64,000 nucleotides of DNA, taken from NCBI GenBank assembly GCA_017645765.1, contig JAGCNV010000016.1, positions 100,316 to 164,315 on the forward strand. The letters run 5' to 3'. Both the position numbers and the translations under genes were made by a program. The notes beneath the pieces were generated by a model that did not search any database, was not told the DNA's origin, and saw only the letters and a list, made by a program, of their open reading frames with translations. This document shows positions 23,002-41,628 of this stretch, piece by piece (the first letter of the stretch is position 1; the number at the start of each line of letters is the position of its first letter). The stretch comes from a bacterium (GTDB lineage Bacteria; UBP6; UBA1177).

Positions 23002-26000
23002 CTAATCCTCTGAATCGCCGCTGTCCTTGGTATCTTCGATGAGAGCAAGGACTCTGAGATAGTAAGCACTCCTCGGACTGAGTTCCTTTCTGAGCTTGAT
23101 GAGGACTTTCTTTGCAGCACTTACGTCACCCGCCTGAAGGTCAGCATAAGCTCTGTCGAACATTGCGGCAGCGGTCTTTTCGATCTCTTTAAGACCGTTC
23201 TGGGCAGATTTGCTGTTTGCATCAGCATAGAGAGCGTCGAAGAAGTATTTTCTAGCCTCGGCAATGTTTTCGTCTTTCAGGAGTTCCATTCCCTGAGCAG
23301 CAAGCGCATCGGCTTTGACTGCATTGAGCTGTTTCGTGTATGCACTGTATTCGTAGTTTCTGTCTCTTTCCTCTTTAAATTCGCTTCCGCCTGCGACAGA
23401 AATCGATTTTGACTTGATGAGATCGTCAACTTTAGCCTTGTACTGCTTTTCGATGTTGTTTTTCGCCTGCTCGTACTTCGCTTTTGCGGCCTCTTCACGC
23501 TTTTCGGCAGCCTTGAGGTTTGCTTCGTGCGCAGCTTTTCTCTTTGCGGCAGCCTTTTCCCACTCGTCTTTCATTGTATCTGTTCTCTTTTCGGCAGCTT
23601 CAAGTTCAGCGCGTAATCTAACCTCATCTTTTTCTTTGCCGGCGATCATTTTTTTCGAGTTACTTTCAAGCTGGGCGATCTTGCCGTTTATCGCTTTTTT
23701 GTCGGTCTCAGCCTTTTTCTCGTATTTCGCATAGACCGCCTGTTTTTCTTTTTCTATCGCGTTTTCGTTAGCGTCTTTCTTCTGTTCGATCGCGACTTCG
23801 ATATCGTTCACCTTCTTTTCAGCGGCAGCCTTTTTGTTTTCAAGCTGAAGAGCGAGAGCGTCTTTCGTCTTTTCAGTGTTTGCATCAGCTGTTTCGCGCT
23901 GTTTTTCAAGAGCGGCGAGCTGTTTTCTCTTTTCAGCAGAAGTTTTGTCGTAAGCAGCCTTTCTCTGTTTAGCCTTTGCGTTTCTTTCAGCTTCGCGTTT
24001 GGCAGCACGACCTTCGATCTCTCTGATCTTGTTGTTCTTGTTTGCGTTGATAGTAGCCTGTTTCTTTTTGATATCCTTTTCGAAAGCGGCCTTTTCCTGC
24101 TCGACTTTCTTCATTTCGGCGTTAAGAGCCTTTTTCTCTGCTTCCTTTTTAGCTTTGAAAGCGGCAGTTTCCTTCTTGATCTCAGCCTCGCCTTTCTTCT
24201 GATCAGCGTCGATCTTAGCCTGTTCAGCCTTATAGTTTTTCGTTATTGCAACAGTCTCTTTTTCCACGAATTTGTCGTGACCGTCCTCGAAAGCAGCGAG
24301 ATCCTTCGAAGCAGCAGCCTGATCTTTTTTAAGTTTCTGCCACTTCGGATCTTTTTCGTATTTCTCCACTTTATCCTGAATTTCGAACATCTGGGTTTCT
24401 ATGGTTTCGACTTTCTTTGCACGTTCAGCCTGACCTTTGCTGTAAGCCTGTTCAGCCTTTTCTTCGGCAGCGCTTTTTTCAGATTCGAACTTGCGCTCGG
24501 CCTCATCTCTCTTTTTGTCGAAATTTTCCTGATTCTTGCTGAGTTTTTCCTCCTGTTTGTCGTTGTAATCGCTGATTTCGGAGTCTATTTTGTCAAATTT
24601 GTCAGTATAAGAGGAAAGTTTTTTGTCGTAATCCTCAAGCTGTTTATTAAGGTTTTCTGTCTCGTCGTCAGCCTTTTTCTCAGCAGCTTCGAGGTCTTTT
24701 GAATCCTTTGCTTCGGCATCAGCTATAGCCTTGTCGAACTTTTCCGATTCTTTCTGCTCTTCAGCTTCGAAATCACCTTCCATTTTTTCAACTTCTTTAG
24801 AAAGTTTAGCGATCTGCTTTTCAAGGTCGGAATTCGATTTTTCGAGAGCCTGCATCTTGTCGTTATACTCTTTTTCAGCAGCTTCTATATCGGCTTTGGA
24901 CTGTTTTTTGGTCTGAATGAGCTGTTTTTTGAGGTCTTTGCTTCCTTTTTTGTATTTCTCATCGATAGCCGCGATCTCTGCTTCGATCTCTTTCTGGTAG
25001 ATCTCTTCGGCCGGTCTTTCGTCTTCGAGCTGTTTGTTCAGCTTTTCGATCTCTCTGTCGGTCTTTTTGAGCTTGTCACGGTAGATCGCATCCATATTTT
25101 CGACATTTTCTCTGAGAGTTTCGAGCTTTTTCTGATGTTCGCGCTCCTGTTTTTTCTCAGCTTTTGCCTGTTTTTTCTCGTCCTGCTCGAATTTTTCGTT
25201 GAGCTTTTTCTGCTCGTCGAGTTTTCCGGCCATAGAATCTTCGAGTTTTTTCATTTCGCCGTCGCGCCATACCGAAATGGTCTTCATCTCTTTCTTGACG
25301 CTTTTGAAAGCACGTCTCGCCTTGTCGTATTCATCTTTTCCGGGCTCGTTGTAACGGCGTTTTTTATTGGTTTCCTTGACGAACTGAAGCTCTTTATAAC
25401 CTTTTTCCCTGAGTTCGAGATCCTTTCTTTCGATTTTGTTGACAGTGTCGACAGCTCTTGAAGCATCGCCGTTTTTGGTCATCGATTTAGCATCATCAAG
25501 AGCCTGCATTATTTCATCAACTGTATCGGCAAAAGAAACGCTTTCGGCCTTTCTGAAAAGAGATGAAGCCTCTTTGCCTTTACCTGCTTTATATGCTTTG
25601 AACGCAGAACGCAGAGTTTCCTTTTTCTCCCTTTCGGTCATTTGAGGAGCTTCTTCTTTCTGAGGAGCAGCTTCTTCAGCTTCTTCAGCCTCTTCCTCGT
25701 CGCCTCCTTCTTCACCGCCTTCCGAAAGTTTTGTAATTGCATCCATAAGTTTTGCCGCAACTTCCGAAGCGAAATCTTCGGCATCTGTATCGCCAGCGAC
25801 ATCGACATTCTGTTTTTTGGCAATCTTGCCGTTTTTGTCGAAGATGTAAAGGATAGCAGTGAAACCTTCGTCGTTAGCCTTTACGACCGGGAAAAGGACA
25901 TACTGCGATTTTTTTAACTTTTTGGCCTCTTCACGGGCACATTTAAGCTTCACGCCGCACTTTTTGAACTTGCCTGACGCAGCGGAATCTATGTCGGAAA

Positions 26001-26175
26001 GCTGAGCACCCTTAACGGTTTTGTAAAGGATTTTAAACTCTTTTGCGAGACTTTTAGCCATTGACGCCGCATCGCTATCACCCGCAGCCGGAACAACCGC
26101 CATTTTGGGATCTGCTGCGAAAAGAGAAAGAGAAACAAAAAGCATAAGCACCAGAATAAAAGATTTTCTGACCAT
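23002..26175 (-). CDS. Large secreted coiled-coil protein with TolB-N-like head and TPR tail
   Basis: A 1057-residue protein. The start is ATG 26175, since GGATGG upstream fits it and the residues then form a signal peptide (cleavage after LFAA, about 21); ATGs further upstream do not. Residues about 25-145 form a small alpha/beta domain reminiscent of the TolB-N/CsgG-like folds found in myxobacterial envelope proteins, with two cysteines (CGVKLKC). An acidic stretch (EEGGDEEEAEEAEE) leads to some 750 residues of near-continuous Lys/Glu/Ala coiled coil. The last ~90 residues look like TPR helices. It is presumably a periplasmic rod or spacer. RodA is encoded upstream in the same direction. 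I know no named family for the whole. Confidence 0.8.
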   Translation of the reverse strand: MVRKSFILVLMLFVSLSLFAADPKMAVVPAAGDSDAASMAKSLAKEFKILYKTVKGAQLSDIDSAASGKFKKCGVKLKCAREEAKKLKKSQYVLFPVVKANDEGFTAILYIFDKNGKIAKKQNVDVAGDTDAEDFASEVAAKLMDAITKLSEGGEEGGDEEEAEEAEEAAPQKEEAPQMTEREKKETLRSAFKAYKAGKGKEASSLFRKAESVSFADTVDEIMQALDDAKSMTKNGDASRAVDTVNKIERKDLELREKGYKELQFVKETNKKRRYNEPGKDEYDKARRAFKSVKKEMKTISVWRDGEMKKLEDSMAGKLDEQKKLNEKFEQDEKKQAKAEKKQEREHQKKLETLRENVENMDAIYRDKLKKTDREIEKLNKQLEDERPAEEIYQKEIEAEIAAIDEKYKKGSKDLKKQLIQTKKQSKADIEAAEKEYNDKMQALEKSNSDLEKQIAKLSKEVEKMEGDFEAEEQKESEKFDKAIADAEAKDSKDLEAAEKKADDETENLNKQLEDYDKKLSSYTDKFDKIDSEISDYNDKQEEKLSKNQENFDKKRDEAERKFESEKSAAEEKAEQAYSKGQAERAKKVETIETQMFEIQDKVEKYEKDPKWQKLKKDQAAASKDLAAFEDGHDKFVEKETVAITKNYKAEQAKIDADQKKGEAEIKKETAAFKAKKEAEKKALNAEMKKVEQEKAAFEKDIKKKQATINANKNNKIREIEGRAAKREAERNAKAKQRKAAYDKTSAEKRKQLAALEKQRETADANTEKTKDALALQLENKKAAAEKKVNDIEVAIEQKKDANENAIEKEKQAVYAKYEKKAETDKKAINGKIAQLESNSKKMIAGKEKDEVRLRAELEAAEKRTDTMKDEWEKAAAKRKAAHEANLKAAEKREEAAKAKYEQAKNNIEKQYKAKVDDLIKSKSISVAGGSEFKEERDRNYEYSAYTKQLNAVKADALAAQGMELLKDENIAEARKYFFDALYADANSKSAQNGLKEIEKTAAAMFDRAYADLQAGDVSAAKKVLIKLRKELSPRSAYYLRVLALIEDTKDSGDSED

Positions 26176-26292
26176 TTTTTCCATCCTTTTTATAGTGAAT
26201 AATTCCAAAAAACGTCTAAATTTTTGATAAATAACAAAAAAGCGCGCGAAAGGTAACGAAAAGAGCTTTTCTTGTCAATTTTTTGCGCCGAA

Positions 26293-27539: not shown

Positions 27540-30104
27540 ATGAAAAAAATCTTCTTATGTCTGCTGTTTCTCGGTCTTTTGTTCGTAATGATCGGATGCG
27601 GAAAGAAAAAAACCGATTCAATATACGATCTTGTGGAAGAAGAAGGAGAAGAAATCCGCGGCGCCCTTTACACCAAATGTTATCCGGACAAAACCTGTGA
27701 TGAAGATCTGATATGTGATAAAAGGTACAACATCTGCATAAGGGATTGTTCCAACAGCGAAGGATTTTTGGAAGAACTTGAAGAGGACATTCCTTCCGCG
27801 TGCAACCCGAACCCGTGCCGGAGCATAGCAAACGCGACCGGGACCTGCACTATAACCGAAGACGAAACTGATTTCGACTGTGAATGCAAAACGAATTATA
27901 CCTGGAACAGCCAGGCAAAAACCTGCGATGCAAATTCCAGAAACAACTACTGCAGCAACCTTCCGGCCAACGCTAAATGGAACACTGTTGCACAGATCAC
28001 TCAGGTCTGGAACGGTGAAACATGGGTTCCTGACAACACAGGTGTGTACGACACGACTCCGAGCACGACCGAATGCCATTTTGTATGTAATGAAAACTAC
28101 GACTGGAACGGAACTTCCTGCAACGGAGTCAAAAAAACGGAAAATTGCACAGGACTTCCGGAAAATGCAAGCTGGAACACTGTTTCATCAATCACACAGA
28201 CATGGAACGGCTATTCATGGACTCCTGACACAAAAGGATACTACAACATCTCCCCGAGCACCAGTCAATGCAGATTCAAATGCAACGACGACCACTATTA
28301 TCACGATGACAAGTGCGTGACACCCTGCACCGAAGGAATCTGCAACATCGCGAACTCGACCGGGCTCTGCAAAGCTTCAAACTGGGACAAATACAGCTGT
28401 GAATGTGAAGAGAACTATACTTGGAACGATTCCACGCGGACTTGCGATGCGAATTCCAAAATTTCAAAATGCATCGGACTTCCCGACAACGCTGCATGGA
28501 ACATCGTGGCAAGCATTACTCAGACATGGAACGGTACGGAATGGCTGCCTGTCAACGAAAGTATTTACAGCGAGGCATCAAGCACTAACGAGTGCAGATA
28601 CAAGTGTAAAACCAACTATTCATGGGAAAATTCCGTTTGTATTCCGAGCTCCAGAGTTACCGACTGCACAGGACTTCCGGAACATGCAGTCTGGAACAAC
28701 GATTCTACAGTTACGCAGACTTGGAACGATCCTGTTTGGACTCCGAGCGCAACAGGAAGTTACAGCAAGAATCCAGGTTCGACACCCTGTACATTTCAGT
28801 GTGATGAAGATTTCCATTGGGAAAATCCGTACTGCATATCCGACAAAAAAACTGTAAACTGCACTGGTCTGCCTGAAAATGCAGTCTGGAACACGAAATC
28901 AAGTATCACCCAGACATGGAAAAACAATACATGGACTCCGGATCCTGCCGGGAAATACAATGCTTATCCAAGCACATCCGAAGAATGCAGATTCAAATGC
29001 ATGGACAATTTCTTCTGGAACGGAACCGCATGCATTACCTATCGATGCGATCGCAAAATCTGCGACAGAGACAGCAGGCCCCATTCAACAGAGGAGTGCA
29101 TTTTGAAAGGAGCGAACAAGCAGATATGTGTATGCGAAGAAGGATTCTACTGGTGGGACGATCTCGGATGCGACAAAAAGCCTCTTTCATTAGGCAATAT
29201 CTGCACAGGCCAGAACGAGTGTTTCAACGACAGCAGCGATATCCCATGTCCGGTCGAAGGAGATGACTTCTACGGCCAGGATGCGCAGTATGCGGCGCTT
29301 GGAAACTGTACACCAAAAAGCTTTACGATAAAAAACGTTGCAGGACAGAATATCATCGTCGACAACAACACCGGTCTTGAATGGCAGCAGTCCGCTCCGA
29401 GCCAGAAATACTCGTGGGAACAGGCCAGAGACTACTGCGGCAGTCTCGTATACGGAGGGCATGCAGGCTGGCGTCTCCCCTCACCGCAGGAATTTCTTAC
29501 AATCATAGACAGCAGCAAGTATAAGCTCGCTCTGGACGTAACATACTTCACGAATATGCCGTCGGATCAGCTGGCCCGCATATGGACATCAAAAGAAGCT
29601 CCGGAAGATCCAGACACGGCCGTTGCGGCGAATGTTTACTACGGCTCCATCCACCGCGGCGAAGACTATCCCAAAACAAATCAGTACAATGTCGTATGCG
29701 TCTGGGGCGACGAACTGCCGGCAGGATCTTTCACGACTTCCACATTGGGTGAATACGATGAAGATGTCGTAACCGATTCCGGGACTGGTCTTATGTGGCA
29801 GAAAATTTTCGTCGAGACGAAGACCTGGAAAGAGGCTCTCTATTACTGCGAAAACCTTGAATATGCCGGATATTCCGACTGGAGACTGCCGAACAGGAAC
29901 GAACTTGCCTCGCTTGTAAATTTTGACCTCTACCAGCCGGCATCGGATTTCCCGGAAATGCCTGAAGAGGACCGTTTCTGGACTTCTTCCTATCTGCCAT
30001 ACAGCACAATACATGCTCAGGCTGTCGATTTTACTTCCGGAATTTTTTATAGCACTCAAAAAACGGAATCGCAGTCTGTCCGCTGCGTCAGGAACAGCAA
30101 TTAA
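27540..30104 (+). CDS. Surface lipoprotein with cysteine-rich repeats and two DUF1566 domains
   Basis: An 854-residue lipoprotein from ATG 27540 behind GGAGA. Lipobox MIGC followed by Gly. A short acidic linker precedes an EGF-like unit and five repeats of about 60 residues with the frame C-x-GLP-x2-A-x-WN ... TQTWN ... STxxCxFxC ... W-x4-C, each with four cysteines. EGF-like inserts occur between repeats. The C-terminal third has two DUF1566/Lcl domains, marked by TGLEWQQ...WRLPSPQEF and TGLMWQK...WRLPNRNEL. Such domains occur in bacterial surface proteins, some with adhesive roles. The many disulfides need an oxidising envelope. It is distantly matched by the 1105-residue lipoprotein at 38311. 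Confidence 0.85.
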   Translation: MKKIFLCLLFLGLLFVMIGCGKKKTDSIYDLVEEEGEEIRGALYTKCYPDKTCDEDLICDKRYNICIRDCSNSEGFLEELEEDIPSACNPNPCRSIANATGTCTITEDETDFDCECKTNYTWNSQAKTCDANSRNNYCSNLPANAKWNTVAQITQVWNGETWVPDNTGVYDTTPSTTECHFVCNENYDWNGTSCNGVKKTENCTGLPENASWNTVSSITQTWNGYSWTPDTKGYYNISPSTSQCRFKCNDDHYYHDDKCVTPCTEGICNIANSTGLCKASNWDKYSCECEENYTWNDSTRTCDANSKISKCIGLPDNAAWNIVASITQTWNGTEWLPVNESIYSEASSTNECRYKCKTNYSWENSVCIPSSRVTDCTGLPEHAVWNNDSTVTQTWNDPVWTPSATGSYSKNPGSTPCTFQCDEDFHWENPYCISDKKTVNCTGLPENAVWNTKSSITQTWKNNTWTPDPAGKYNAYPSTSEECRFKCMDNFFWNGTACITYRCDRKICDRDSRPHSTEECILKGANKQICVCEEGFYWWDDLGCDKKPLSLGNICTGQNECFNDSSDIPCPVEGDDFYGQDAQYAALGNCTPKSFTIKNVAGQNIIVDNNTGLEWQQSAPSQKYSWEQARDYCGSLVYGGHAGWRLPSPQEFLTIIDSSKYKLALDVTYFTNMPSDQLARIWTSKEAPEDPDTAVAANVYYGSIHRGEDYPKTNQYNVVCVWGDELPAGSFTTSTLGEYDEDVVTDSGTGLMWQKIFVETKTWKEALYYCENLEYAGYSDWRLPNRNELASLVNFDLYQPASDFPEMPEEDRFWTSSYLPYSTIHAQAVDFTSGIFYSTQKTESQSVRCVRNSN
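27943..29034 (+). repeat. Five diverged ~175-bp repeats coding for four-cysteine modules
   Basis: Units begin near 27943, 28143, 28467, 28662 and 28857, each carrying GLP, WN, TQ.WN and two CxxxC-type cysteine sets. Units 2-3 are separated by an EGF-like insert. The copies have diverged in DNA but share the motif framework. Confidence 0.85.
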
Positions 30105-38310: not shown

Positions 38311-41300
38311 CTAGTTTACAACTGCAAACTGAAGACATTCCTCACCGTCCCAGGTATATTCTTCACCGCATTCGCATACATATCCGGTTTCGATTTCAGG
38401 ATCAGTGGTCGTCAGGCATCTTCCTGTCGAATTTTCAACCGATGCACACGGATTTCCGGCACACGCGCTATCACCGCCTGAAACACAGCGGAAACGTGCA
38501 TAAGAATCGTTGTCCTGTTCGAAAACTTCAACATTACTGAAATCGAAACAAGAAATCTTTCTATATTCCGGTAAATCGGAAGACCAGAAATAACTAATGT
38601 CGCCCAAAACCGAATACTTACCGCTGAAATCTACCGCACAGTTTCCTTCTTCGCAGTGTCTTACAAGCGTCTGAAGCTCTTCCATTGTCGGAAGTCTCCA
38701 GAAGTTTTCAGTATCTTCTTCCGTATTAAGTTCTGCGCAGTAATCGTAAGCATCCCGCCAGTCCGCATAAGGCTTCAAATCAGACCACGTGAGTCCGGCC
38801 GGATCAGTGTAAGGAATCGTCTCATAATCATCAAGAGTATTGTCAAGAACGCACCTTTGGACGAGCAGCGAAATAGGAATTCCGCTTTCAGCATAAATAA
38901 GCCCTTCTGCGGCATCTACGATCCAGGGTTTTGACCAATTGTCATTTCCATCACTCCAGGAATCGAGTGTCATAGTGCCTGAAAACATGGCTCCGTAATC
39001 ATTCAAAGTCGTTTTTGAAGTTACATCACCGATGCAAGCCTCTTCATCAAAACACGACTCTTCCCTGCATACAGTTGTTACGCCGCATGTTCCGCCCTCT
39101 TTTTTGAGTTTTTCAGTCGTAACGGTATTGCGGATCTCGTCTATTGTCGGAAGCCTCCACCTGTTCGAGCCGTTTTCGCTCAGATAGCGGCACATTTCAG
39201 CAAGGTCAGATATATAAACCGTCTTTACTGTAGAACGGTCACATTCACTACCGCGCAGTTCACAGTCGGGATCGTAATACGAGCCGGAAGAGAGATAGTA
39301 GTTATCGAAATCTGCAAAAATTTCGGGGTAAATCCTCGACGACCAGATCGTGCCGTTCGCATCTATGCAGGGTCCCGTTCCTGTTCCGTCACACTCAGGA
39401 ATTTCCTCTTTTTCATCAAGATCACTTCTGACGCAGAGAACAGAGTATCCTTCTTCTTCCTCAGCTATTTCGTCTTTTTTGATGCTTTTAAGTGACCGTG
39501 GCTGCTGCGGTCCCACTATCGGTTCGTCTTCCGGATTTTCGACTTCGCCGGACGGGCCGACAAGTCCGTATCCCATGTGGATAAGCCATACAAGATAATC
39601 GACAGGCGCCGGAGTCGAAGTCCAGAAGATATCAGGCGCCATATCAGGGAATGAAGAGACAACTTCAGATCCTTCCTCCGTTTCCGCTACTACTTCATCA
39701 CCTTCTCCAGCAACTTCCGCCGATAATTTAGAATAGTCTATAAGCGTTGCAAGTTCGTTCATGTTCGGAAGTCTCCAGTCGGTATGTCCTGCGTATTCAA
39801 GGTTTTCGCAGTAGGAAAGCGCCTCTTTCCAAGTCGCCTTCCTGACCGGTTCTTTCTGCCAGAAAAGGTTTGTGGATGAATCCGAGATCATCTCATCGCC
39901 GTTTTCAGTAACGGCAGAATAGTTTTCAGCACTTGCCTCGCCGTATTTTTCTCCGCTTACGCACATGAGGTATCCTTCATACGAATACGAACTTCTGGCA
40001 AGATTAACCATACGGGTAATCAAACCGTAGGGCAGCAGATAGAAATAATTTTCGATCGAGGTCAGGATTAAATCAGGACCGTATGACCTGGAAACTTCGC
40101 GAACCAAGGTACCATCATCATATTTTCCATAAAGTTCTACAAAATAAACCGGATCAATTCTGTTACCGTAAAGCATTCCGTGATCGGCGAGAGCGGCAAG
40201 TTCCTGCGGCTCCGGAAGTCTCCAGTCTTCGATTCCTCCGTAAGCGGCATATTCGTTTTTCATCTCTTCGTAAGTTCCAATTCTTCCGGTAAGCCACCAG
40301 GTGAGCCCTGTAACATTGTCTTTGATGAAAGGCTCTCCTTCAACCTCTTCACTATTTTCGATTTCGGTGTAACTGTGCGGCACACAGCCTTTTCTTGCGG
40401 CATACTGCGCATCCTGACCGTAAGCATCTTCATCTTCCTTCGGGCATAAAATCTGATTTCCTTCACCGTCCGTGCAGATCGCCATGCCCGTGCAGAGCAC
40501 TTTGGAATAAATTTTTTTGCAGTCGTCAGAGCAGCTTGAACCGATTCCTTCACCGGTTTCAGCCTTGTCGCATTTCTCGTTGCTTTGAACTATGCCGTCG
40601 CCGCAATAAGCAGTCGAACCTTCCGCATTCTGACAGTTTGTCGTGCAGACAGTGCAGGATGTTTCGCCGTAAGCACAGGCGGTCCGGCCGTTATCCGTTC
40701 CGTTGTCGCATGCTTCATCGGGATCTAAAATGCCGTTTCCGCATTCAGCGACATAAACGTCATTGTCTTCGTCAGCAACCGGTTCGTCAGCATCTTCGTC
40801 CGAGATTTCGATATCCGATGTATCGACATCGTCTTCTTCATCCGTAATTTCGATATCCTCGTCTTCATTCGTGATTCCGGAATCATCTTTATCAGGTTTT
40901 TCAACAGGTTCTTCCTCATCTTCGACATCAATCAAGAAAAATGCGTAAGCGGTGAAGTGACCGGTCGTCATCATGATCGGATCTCCGGCAGCACTCATCA
41001 TGATGGGATCTCCAGCTGCCGTAACCATAATGGGATCTCCTGCCGCGCTAAGCATAATCGGATCTCCGGCTGCATCCATCATAATCGGGTCTCCTGCAGC
41101 ATTCAGCATTATAGGATCACCGGCAGCCGTTGTAATGACCGGATTGCCTGCGCCGTCATGACTGAGTTTTACCGTGTATCCGATTTTGCTGAAACTCCAT
41201 TTACCTTCTTTCTCTCTGTAAACTGCAGCAGTGATGACTTTTTTCTTAGCCGCCCTGAGTTCTCCGCCGGTTCCGGTGCTTGTCATCGAAATAAAAACAG

Positions 41301-41628
41301 GTTTCTTGAAAACCGTACCTGTTGGTTCGAACTCGACCACTTTGCTGATAACGGTTTTGTCTTCTGTTCCGGGATAACCCTTGGCATCGTAAACTCTCAT
41401 CGTGATTTTAGTGTCACTGTCGAGAGCATCAGCCGGAATTTCAATCGAAGTCTGTCCGTCTGAACTTTCGATCTTTCCACCTTCTTCAGCAGAAATTTCT
41501 TTCGTGACCTCTTCTTCAACCAGCGGTTTTTCATCATTTTGTTCAGGTTTGTTTTTTTTCTTGTCGCTGCATGAAGCGAGCGCAAAAAGCGAAACAAAAA
41601 CCATAACCAAGCAAAATACGCGTTTCAT
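38311..41628 (-). CDS. Giant surface lipoprotein: ZU5-like domain, cysteine-rich repeats, four DUF1566-like domains
   Basis: An 1105-residue lipoprotein from ATG 41628 with AAGGAGG. Lipobox ALASC (Cys20) then Ser. A ZU5-like beta domain (about 40-235) contains six AAGDPIM repeats (168-221) inserted before its TGHFTAYAF ending. A long acidic tether (about 240-300) follows. Next come myxobacterial-type cysteine repeats (CGNGILDPDEACDNG, CGDGIVQSNEKCD). Four DUF1566/Lcl-like domains follow, each with a WRLP motif and a WxSS-type end, and a final EGF-like unit closes the protein. Its likely place is the cell surface in binding or adhesion. The downstream barrel gene follows after one base. Confidence 0.85.
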   Translation of the reverse strand: MKRVFCLVMVFVSLFALASCSDKKKNKPEQNDEKPLVEEEVTKEISAEEGGKIESSDGQTSIEIPADALDSDTKITMRVYDAKGYPGTEDKTVISKVVEFEPTGTVFKKPVFISMTSTGTGGELRAAKKKVITAAVYREKEGKWSFSKIGYTVKLSHDGAGNPVITTAAGDPIMLNAAGDPIMMDAAGDPIMLSAAGDPIMVTAAGDPIMMSAAGDPIMMTTGHFTAYAFFLIDVEDEEEPVEKPDKDDSGITNEDEDIEITDEEDDVDTSDIEISDEDADEPVADEDNDVYVAECGNGILDPDEACDNGTDNGRTACAYGETSCTVCTTNCQNAEGSTAYCGDGIVQSNEKCDKAETGEGIGSSCSDDCKKIYSKVLCTGMAICTDGEGNQILCPKEDEDAYGQDAQYAARKGCVPHSYTEIENSEEVEGEPFIKDNVTGLTWWLTGRIGTYEEMKNEYAAYGGIEDWRLPEPQELAALADHGMLYGNRIDPVYFVELYGKYDDGTLVREVSRSYGPDLILTSIENYFYLLPYGLITRMVNLARSSYSYEGYLMCVSGEKYGEASAENYSAVTENGDEMISDSSTNLFWQKEPVRKATWKEALSYCENLEYAGHTDWRLPNMNELATLIDYSKLSAEVAGEGDEVVAETEEGSEVVSSFPDMAPDIFWTSTPAPVDYLVWLIHMGYGLVGPSGEVENPEDEPIVGPQQPRSLKSIKKDEIAEEEEGYSVLCVRSDLDEKEEIPECDGTGTGPCIDANGTIWSSRIYPEIFADFDNYYLSSGSYYDPDCELRGSECDRSTVKTVYISDLAEMCRYLSENGSNRWRLPTIDEIRNTVTTEKLKKEGGTCGVTTVCREESCFDEEACIGDVTSKTTLNDYGAMFSGTMTLDSWSDGNDNWSKPWIVDAAEGLIYAESGIPISLLVQRCVLDNTLDDYETIPYTDPAGLTWSDLKPYADWRDAYDYCAELNTEEDTENFWRLPTMEELQTLVRHCEEGNCAVDFSGKYSVLGDISYFWSSDLPEYRKISCFDFSNVEVFEQDNDSYARFRCVSGGDSACAGNPCASVENSTGRCLTTTDPEIETGYVCECGEEYTWDGEECLQFAVVN
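40966..41127 (-). repeat. Six tandem 27-bp units encoding AAGDPIMxx
   Basis: Residues 168-221 of the lipoprotein read AAGDPIM followed by two variable residues, six times (LN, MD, LS, VT, MS, MT). The units are similar but not identical, so this is an older expansion than the one at 19738. Confidence 0.95.

Follow-up and report, generated by a model that had tools for sequence, protein, structure and literature searches.

A repeated four-cysteine module in a putative surface lipoprotein adhesin of a UBP6 bacterium

Gene and domain architecture

The stretch of 64,000 nucleotides analysed here (the window; contig JAGCNV010000016.1 of assembly GCA_017645765.1, positions 100,316 to 164,315) comes from an uncultured gut bacterium of the genus UBA1177, which passages of a rumen metagenome paper (PMC7820578) assign to the phylum UBP6, and whose genome (G000) comprises 2.65 Mb in 109 contigs. 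Genome G011 is a member of this genus; because its module matches have coordinates identical to those of G072, the source of orthologue L061, G011 and G072 are treated as one genome, UBA1177. On its + strand the window encodes a lipoprotein of 854 residues (27540..30104) with 53 cysteines and 33 tryptophans, which contains five copies of a four-cysteine module of 57 residues upstream of two DUF1566 domains. With a probability of roughly 0.55, we interpret this gene as encoding a surface lipoprotein adhesin, in which a rigid stalk of cysteine-rich beads would carry lectin-fold heads.

ATG 27540, which is preceded by GGAG, is the likely start codon because the resulting N-terminus (MKKIF) is common to the orthologues in two named genomes, bacterium UBP6_UBA1177 (L061, 82% identity) and RGIG7134 (L062, 78%). 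The lipoprotein signal peptide (27540..27599) ends in FVMIG ahead of the lipobox cysteine (Cys20); this lipobox, MKKIFLCLLFLGLLFVMIG followed by C, was identified by pattern only and is kept in the orthologues. An N-terminal cluster of five cysteines follows (27678..27749), and the repeat region then comprises six-cysteine EGF-like unit 1 (27801..27926), modules 1 (27951..28121) and 2 (28146..28316), EGF-like unit 2 (28326..28445), modules 3 (28470..28640), 4 (28665..28835) and 5 (28860..29033), and EGF-like unit 3 (29046..29171). All five modules share one frame of the + strand. EGF-like units 2 and 3, also with six cysteines each, were assigned by eye from their cysteine spacing, and unit 2 was missed by the strict pattern. 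The C-terminus is formed by two Lcl_C domains (DUF1566, PF07603; 29352..29702 and 29766..30092).

With M for the module, the domain order is thus EGF-M-M-EGF-M-M-M-EGF-Lcl_C-Lcl_C. The original prediction, made from the letters of the window, held with respect to the five-copy, four-cysteine module and the two DUF1566 domains behind the repeat region, both of which are Lcl_C according to Pfam, while the proposed alternation of modules with EGF-like units applies only roughly. The segment module-EGF-Lcl_C-Lcl_C was matched over at least 98% of its length in 23 of 41 other open frames (BLAST, E ≤ 1e-20).

Sequence, copy number and conservation of the module

All five window units have the cysteine spacing C-x40/41-C-x3-C-x10-C and share LP close to the first cysteine as well as WN, TQ-x-W and W-x-P, which corresponds to an approximate consensus of C-x2-LP-x-NA-x-WN...TQTWNG-x2-W-x-P...Y...ST-x2-C-x3-C-x3-Y-x-W-x4-C. 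Exceptions are minor: unit 1 begins with CSNLP and contains TQVW, unit 2 has HYYH in place of YxW ahead of the last cysteine, and units 4 and 5 have F at a position occupied by Y in units 1 and 3. Identity among the five units is 40-72% over their first 40 residues. No tandem repeat was detected in the gene at the DNA level, which rules out a tandem DNA repeat and, together with the wide divergence, identifies the units as diverged copies and not as a product of recent slippage.

A hidden Markov model (HMM) built from the five window units only, as suggested with the original prediction, retrieved 91 near-complete copies in 21 open frames (E < 1e-3; 93 after iteration) from the window and 20 stretches of its own genome. 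The five copies are thus one corner of a large family. A separate search of the whole genome yielded 96 module matches at E ≤ 1e-4. Across proteins, the number of units ranges from 1 to 16, and the linker between successive units is exactly 8 residues long in 156 of 239 gaps, counted over the window and the loci retrieved from genome_contigs, with a few Gracilibacteria frames entered in two genetic codes.

The window gene is under purifying selection, with whole-gene ratios of nonsynonymous to synonymous substitution rates (dN/dS) of 0.28 against L061 and 0.18 against L062. All 53 cysteines and all 33 tryptophans are kept in both orthologues. Values for single domains are noisier, and against L061 reach about 1 for module 3, 0.74 for EGF-like unit 3 and 0.63 for the first Lcl_C domain. 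Copy number in the HMM search and purifying selection rule out a chance or low-complexity repeat.

Predicted folds of the heads and the module

The C-terminal domains scored 163.3 bits over two stretches against a Pfam cut-off of 34.9 (E 3.3e-48; 98.6 and 85.6 bits separately). The predicted model of head 1 has a C-type-lectin-like fold and aligned with the C-terminal domain of Legionella Lcl (8q4e) with Z 12.5 and a root-mean-square deviation (rmsd) of 3.5 Å over 121 residues, followed by the tip of Bdellovibrio Bd2740 (8oks, Z 11.0) and then by numerous C-type-lectin domains; ranked by Foldseek E-value, ectodomains of the mannose-receptor family came first. Passages of PMC11162425 and PMC10769870 describe the Lcl C-terminal domain and Bd2740 as adhesin tips, Lcl as binding glycosaminoglycans and Bd2740 as a predator fibre protein (mosaic adhesive trimer). 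The window protein thus resembles Lcl in its Lcl_C heads, the first with the same predicted fold, and Bd2740 in having a C-type-lectin-fold tip on a putative surface adhesin. In contrast to Lcl, which according to the same passages of PMC11162425 has a collagen stalk and an N-terminal helix, the window protein would combine a lipid anchor with a stalk of cysteine beads. The stalk also differs from that of Bd2740, and there is no sign here of UBP6 preying on bacteria.

The genome encodes 141 Lcl_C (DUF1566) matches, 130 of them above the Pfam cut-off, a very large expansion for 2.65 Mb. The cell surface is therefore probably rich in lectin-fold heads, a part of which would sit on cysteine-bead stalks. 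A second long DUF1566 protein is encoded in the window on the - strand (38311-41628; 1105 residues, three Lcl_C matches, two above the cut-off).

For the module, AlphaFold2 folded units 3 and 4 together from a 97-row tandem-pair alignment with a predicted local distance difference test (pLDDT) score of 95.5 and a predicted template modelling score (pTM) of 0.75, yielding short beta strands and no helix. A model of module 5-EGF-Lcl_C-Lcl_C reached a pLDDT of 88.9, in which the single module, with block means of 72-90, fell short of the quality reached with the deep tandem alignment. Foldseek gave no clear match in the PDB (best E 2.3, a DcR3 chain of the TNFR type), VIA-align over 52 aligned chains gave Z of at most 2.9 to MSP-1(19), TNFR-type receptors and CCP domains, and the best match in a viral structure library had E 1.1. 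Small disulfide folds are hard for Foldseek and VIA-align, and such weak matches are no proof of a new fold.

Distribution, anchors and partner domains

With a profile of 42 units, the module was detected at E ≤ 1e-4 in 24 of the 28 phylum genomes, counting the own genome. All 15 members of the own genus contain it (15 to at least 96 matches each, the high counts being lower bounds); it was also present in all four other genomes of the family, in four of six other genomes of the order and, as a weak match, in one of three genomes of another family (f4). None of the 33 genomes of other phyla in the sample of relatives contained it. The only search across all phyla, in which genome_contigs was scanned for a narrow peptide pattern, identified 63 loci, and further carriers may exist. 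These loci belong to UBP6-like metagenome-assembled genomes (MAGs) and Candidatus Gracilibacteria/Absconditabacteria, in addition to a single deltaproteobacterial MAG (M1802) and a small contig labelled 'Fermentimonas'. The named UBP6-like carriers with a stated source are all of ruminant origin (rumen, abomasum, duodenum, red deer, reindeer). Of 288 genomes sampled from a larger group in the class to which the Gracilibacteria genome G061 belongs, 40 contained the module, nine of them known beforehand. Among 52 genomes of the class of M1802, the module was found in M1802 itself (three copies) and in no other.

This patchy occurrence outside UBP6 suggests horizontal transfer of the module. In a tree of 83 short units (57 columns), UBP6 and Gracilibacteria groups are intermixed, and a starred branch (100/95) unites UBP6 and Gracilibacteria/Absconditabacteria copies of a KPANT subtype. 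A single Gracilibacteria clade is compatible with the data (approximately unbiased test, p 0.115), and the 57-column tree gives neither the direction nor the number of transfers. A phage or plasmid origin was rejected, as phage and plasmid records contained no match to units 3-5 and none of 24 pattern stretches in IMG/VR was confirmed as the module.

Two taxonomic labels among the carriers call for comment. The 'Fermentimonas' contig (L110) has its best match in Absconditabacteria locus L111 from the same sample series (97% DNA identity over 832 bases) and is probably a mis-binned Absconditabacteria contig; it was grouped with Gracilibacteria in the tree and, its start being cut off, stands outside the lipobox count. 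The rumen MAGs RUG11946 and RUG12558 (loci L063, L068, L071, L083, L087, L089, L101 and L105) are labelled Spirochaetales, a label that is probably wrong, as their units compared in the tree adjoin UBP6 ones; units of L071, for example, are placed beside those of own-genome locus L031, and units of L087 beside those of UBA1177 locus L074.

Counting only module proteins that have their start within the retrieved DNA, a lipobox was identified by pattern in 16 of 19 from the own genome and in 38 of 46 from other non-Gracilibacteria loci (M1802 included), and a prepilin motif in none of either set. Conversely, 10 of 12 Gracilibacteria module proteins carry a prepilin-type motif (e.g. FTLVELI) and none a lipobox. 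Pfam N_methyl matched five of seven Gracilibacteria module proteins at E ≤ 0.01, three of them over the cut-off. Most Gracilibacteria module frames are open only if TGA is read as glycine, as expected of genes resident in these organisms. Genes combining a prepilin-type N-terminus, the module and varied C-terminal domains were observed at L094, L098, L103, L104, L106, L112, L114, L115, L119 and L121, and partners of the module in Gracilibacteria include leucine-rich repeats, DUF285, List_Bact (Listeria-Bacteroides) repeats and a sub-threshold Fib_succ_major match (Pfam).

A proposed cysteine-bead stalk

We propose that a lipid anchor holds the N-terminus of the window protein at the cell surface, and that the five beta-rich beads, connected by linkers of mostly 8 residues and with EGF-like units in between, would form a stiff, extendable stalk. 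The ligand of the two Lcl_C heads at its far end would probably be a glycan or the surface of another cell. More generally, the bead would be a mobile building block of variable copy number that gives rise to surface adhesins of variable reach, mounted on many UBP6 surface proteins and, in Gracilibacteria, mostly on prepilin-type anchors.

Each bead would be held by two disulfides. Over its last 12 columns (CxxxYxWxxxxC), the module resembles the C5-C6 loop of the EGF-like units beside it, with an hhalign probability of 92% (14% for the whole module), and because this tail resembles the last EGF loop, we infer a C3-C4 pairing, which would leave C1-C2 as the second disulfide. Extra cysteines occur in ten units; nine of these have two, placed at positions 34 and 43 in six units, and some of the units are close relatives. 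Such pairs are expected for disulfides between neighbouring strands. The number of mature cysteines is even in 10 of 10 Gracilibacteria prepilin-type module proteins, not all of which are independent.

Several observations weigh against the stalk and its disulfides. No covered core cysteine is missing from 378 distinct units, which favours disulfides, but C1 lies within the local alignment in 351 and C4 in 265 units, and the loss of an end cysteine could therefore go unseen. Even cysteine numbers were found in only 31 of 53 non-Gracilibacteria lipoproteins (UBP6 and one of M1802; p 0.14), the own genome contributing 8 of 16, and the mature window protein has 51, an odd number, which leaves at least one unpaired or bonded between chains. 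The structure prediction proposed with the original prediction gave a confident tandem pair, from which the cysteine pairing is not readable, and its pTM is no proof of a rigid angle between beads. Neither DsbB nor VKOR was detected in any of 25 genomes of the order (E ≤ 0.001). Finally, the module does not always lie between anchor and head: one own-genome protein (L035:3538-4830) has a single copy at its C-terminus, and another (L044:3908-5440) has the module between Lcl_C domains.

The last two cases fit equally well with a module that itself binds glycan or peptide, with conserved tryptophans and tyrosines as the binding site and repetition providing avidity. Four tryptophans (W10, W20, W25 and W52) are conserved in at least 90% of rows of module alignment A3, and the module is combined with many different partner domains, as might be expected of a binding domain. 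However, the mostly fixed linker and the high copy number suit a structural bead equally, the conserved tryptophans and prolines may be mere core residues of a small fold that is predicted with high confidence, and the structure searches returned no ligand-binding homologue. We therefore regard a binding module as possible but doubtful.

Relation of the module to catalogued families

The original prediction took the unit for a new disulfide-rich surface module. Within the window protein this part of the prediction stands: Lcl_C is its only Pfam match at E ≤ 10, NCBIfam gave none at E ≤ 1, and the one PHROGs match, a family of unknown function, lies on the Lcl_C part. Searches of PDB sequences yielded one match for the whole protein (E 0.11) and none beyond chance, and a PDB domain was rejected as a relative by sequence, the 42-unit profile matching only gp41 fragments (E 1.7 and 2). 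Other copies of the module are weakly matched by a catalogued family, DUF5874 (PF19202, function unknown), and the prediction needs qualification in this respect. We found no paper on the module with the words tried, none naming DUF5874 and none on DUF1566 with EGF-like domains and a lipoprotein.

Of 97 tandem pairs, 58 were weakly matched by DUF5874 (E ≤ 1), the top scores falling on Gracilibacteria copies; the alignment, in register with the module, begins near residue 19 and covers C4 and the linker. The best recorded bit score was 26.7 for L112, against a cut-off of 27.1, and the best E-value among the 97 pairs, 2.4e-6, corresponds by extrapolation to about 28 bits, just above that cut-off. 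All five real pairs behind a set of controls matched DUF5874, whereas none of the ten controls (five shuffled with cysteines fixed, five reversed) matched DUF5874, MBG_3 or DUF6087 at E ≤ 0.1, which indicates that residue order matters for the match. Nevertheless, MBG_3, an unlikely relative, reached 27.5 bits for one pair (cut-off 25) and DUF6087 scored similarly to DUF5874; these similar scores may reflect a common motif. Judging from these profile matches, a remote relative of the module may already be catalogued, without a function.

The resemblance to EGF is confined to the tail: EGF has six cysteines, whereas the module has four core cysteines and a tryptophan-rich N-terminal part of 40 residues. 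Sushi/CCP domains are likewise tandem beads of about 60 residues with four cysteines, with Pro-Asn near C1 and Trp before C4, but their cysteine spacing is about 30-12-12, as opposed to 40-3-10 in the module, and their disulfides are C1-C3 and C2-C4. Pfam Sushi (PF00084) gave weak matches to ten of the 97 tandem pairs (E ≤ 1, best E 0.0013) and was absent among 30 tandem pairs, 28 from this set and two others, scanned at E ≤ 0.1 or ≤ 0.01; the structural match to FHR1 reached just Z 2.0 (rmsd 5.6).

That the module is a diverged member of DUF5874, Sushi or EGF, and hence nothing new, would agree with the in-register alignment and near-cut-off scores of DUF5874, the absence of matches in the controls and the EGF-like tail. 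We nonetheless consider it unlikely, given that DUF5874 is absent from the window protein, that only three of 42 single units match it (best E 0.0052; best NCBIfam E 0.045), and that MBG_3 scores equally high and EGF differs in cysteine number.

Disulfide-forming machinery

Sixteen complete module lipoproteins of the own genome contain 790 cysteines. According to passages of PMC12453122, obligate anaerobes tend towards cysteine exclusion from exported proteins, and oxidation by small molecules has been proposed for Clostridia. Judging from the gut origin of its MAGs, the order is presumably anaerobic. In G000, G003 and G006, DsbB and VKOR were absent even at E ≤ 10. In contrast to the order, all three genomes of family f4 have VKOR. 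DsbA-like Thioredoxin_4 domains occur in 27 of 28 phylum genomes and 24 of 25 of the order, the only order genome without one (G002) being 59% complete, and three such domains share one open frame in 23 of 25 order genomes. In the own genome this triple DsbA-like protein is a lipoprotein by its signal and has the sites CPFS, CPFC and CPFC (L152:5679-7625, equal to C91:95678-97624). M1802 has VKOR, as do five of nine module-bearing Gracilibacteria genomes, one of the four others having a sub-threshold DsbB match; the module and a known re-oxidase thus do not always occur together. For the UBP6 order, oxidation may be carried out by small molecules, or by a re-oxidant that is of an undescribed kind or has diverged beyond detection.

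That the module is instead a metal-binding or redox-active cysteine domain seems improbable: the presumably anaerobic lineage, the lack of detected DsbB or VKOR and the non-significant cysteine parity of UBP6 lipoproteins would favour it, but extra cysteines come mostly in pairs, parity is complete in the Gracilibacteria proteins, the module is located on exported proteins next to EGF-like units, the triple DsbA-like lipoprotein is present and, to our knowledge, a 40-3-10 spacing matches no known metal site.

On its - strand the window also encodes a protein of 1068 residues (23002-26208) that is rich in Lys and Glu, resembles a coiled coil and has a signal-like N-terminus; a shorter protein at L152:2461-3795 has a Lys/Glu-rich middle that resembles it.

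Implications

We tentatively extend the stalk interpretation to a broader hypothesis, which we hold to be less probable. The bead, scarcely catalogued so far, may have spread horizontally among UBP6, Gracilibacteria and at least one deltaproteobacterium, being re-mounted on lineage-specific anchors, and the UBP6 order might fold its cysteine-rich surface proteome by means of the triple-DsbA protein, recharged via an oxidant other than DsbB or VKOR, which would constitute an undiscovered disulfide route of an anaerobe. In contrast to the tendency of obligate anaerobes, a presumably anaerobic order here exports hundreds of cysteines without a detected known DsbA re-oxidase. If correct, the stalk interpretation would mean that an extracellular bead of disulfide type, akin to EGF and Sushi, exists in about 90 copies in a single bacterial genome of 2.6 Mb and connects surface proteins across UBP6 and Gracilibacteria, two groups about which little is known. 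In that case many, probably hundreds, of unannotated surface proteins would become nameable.

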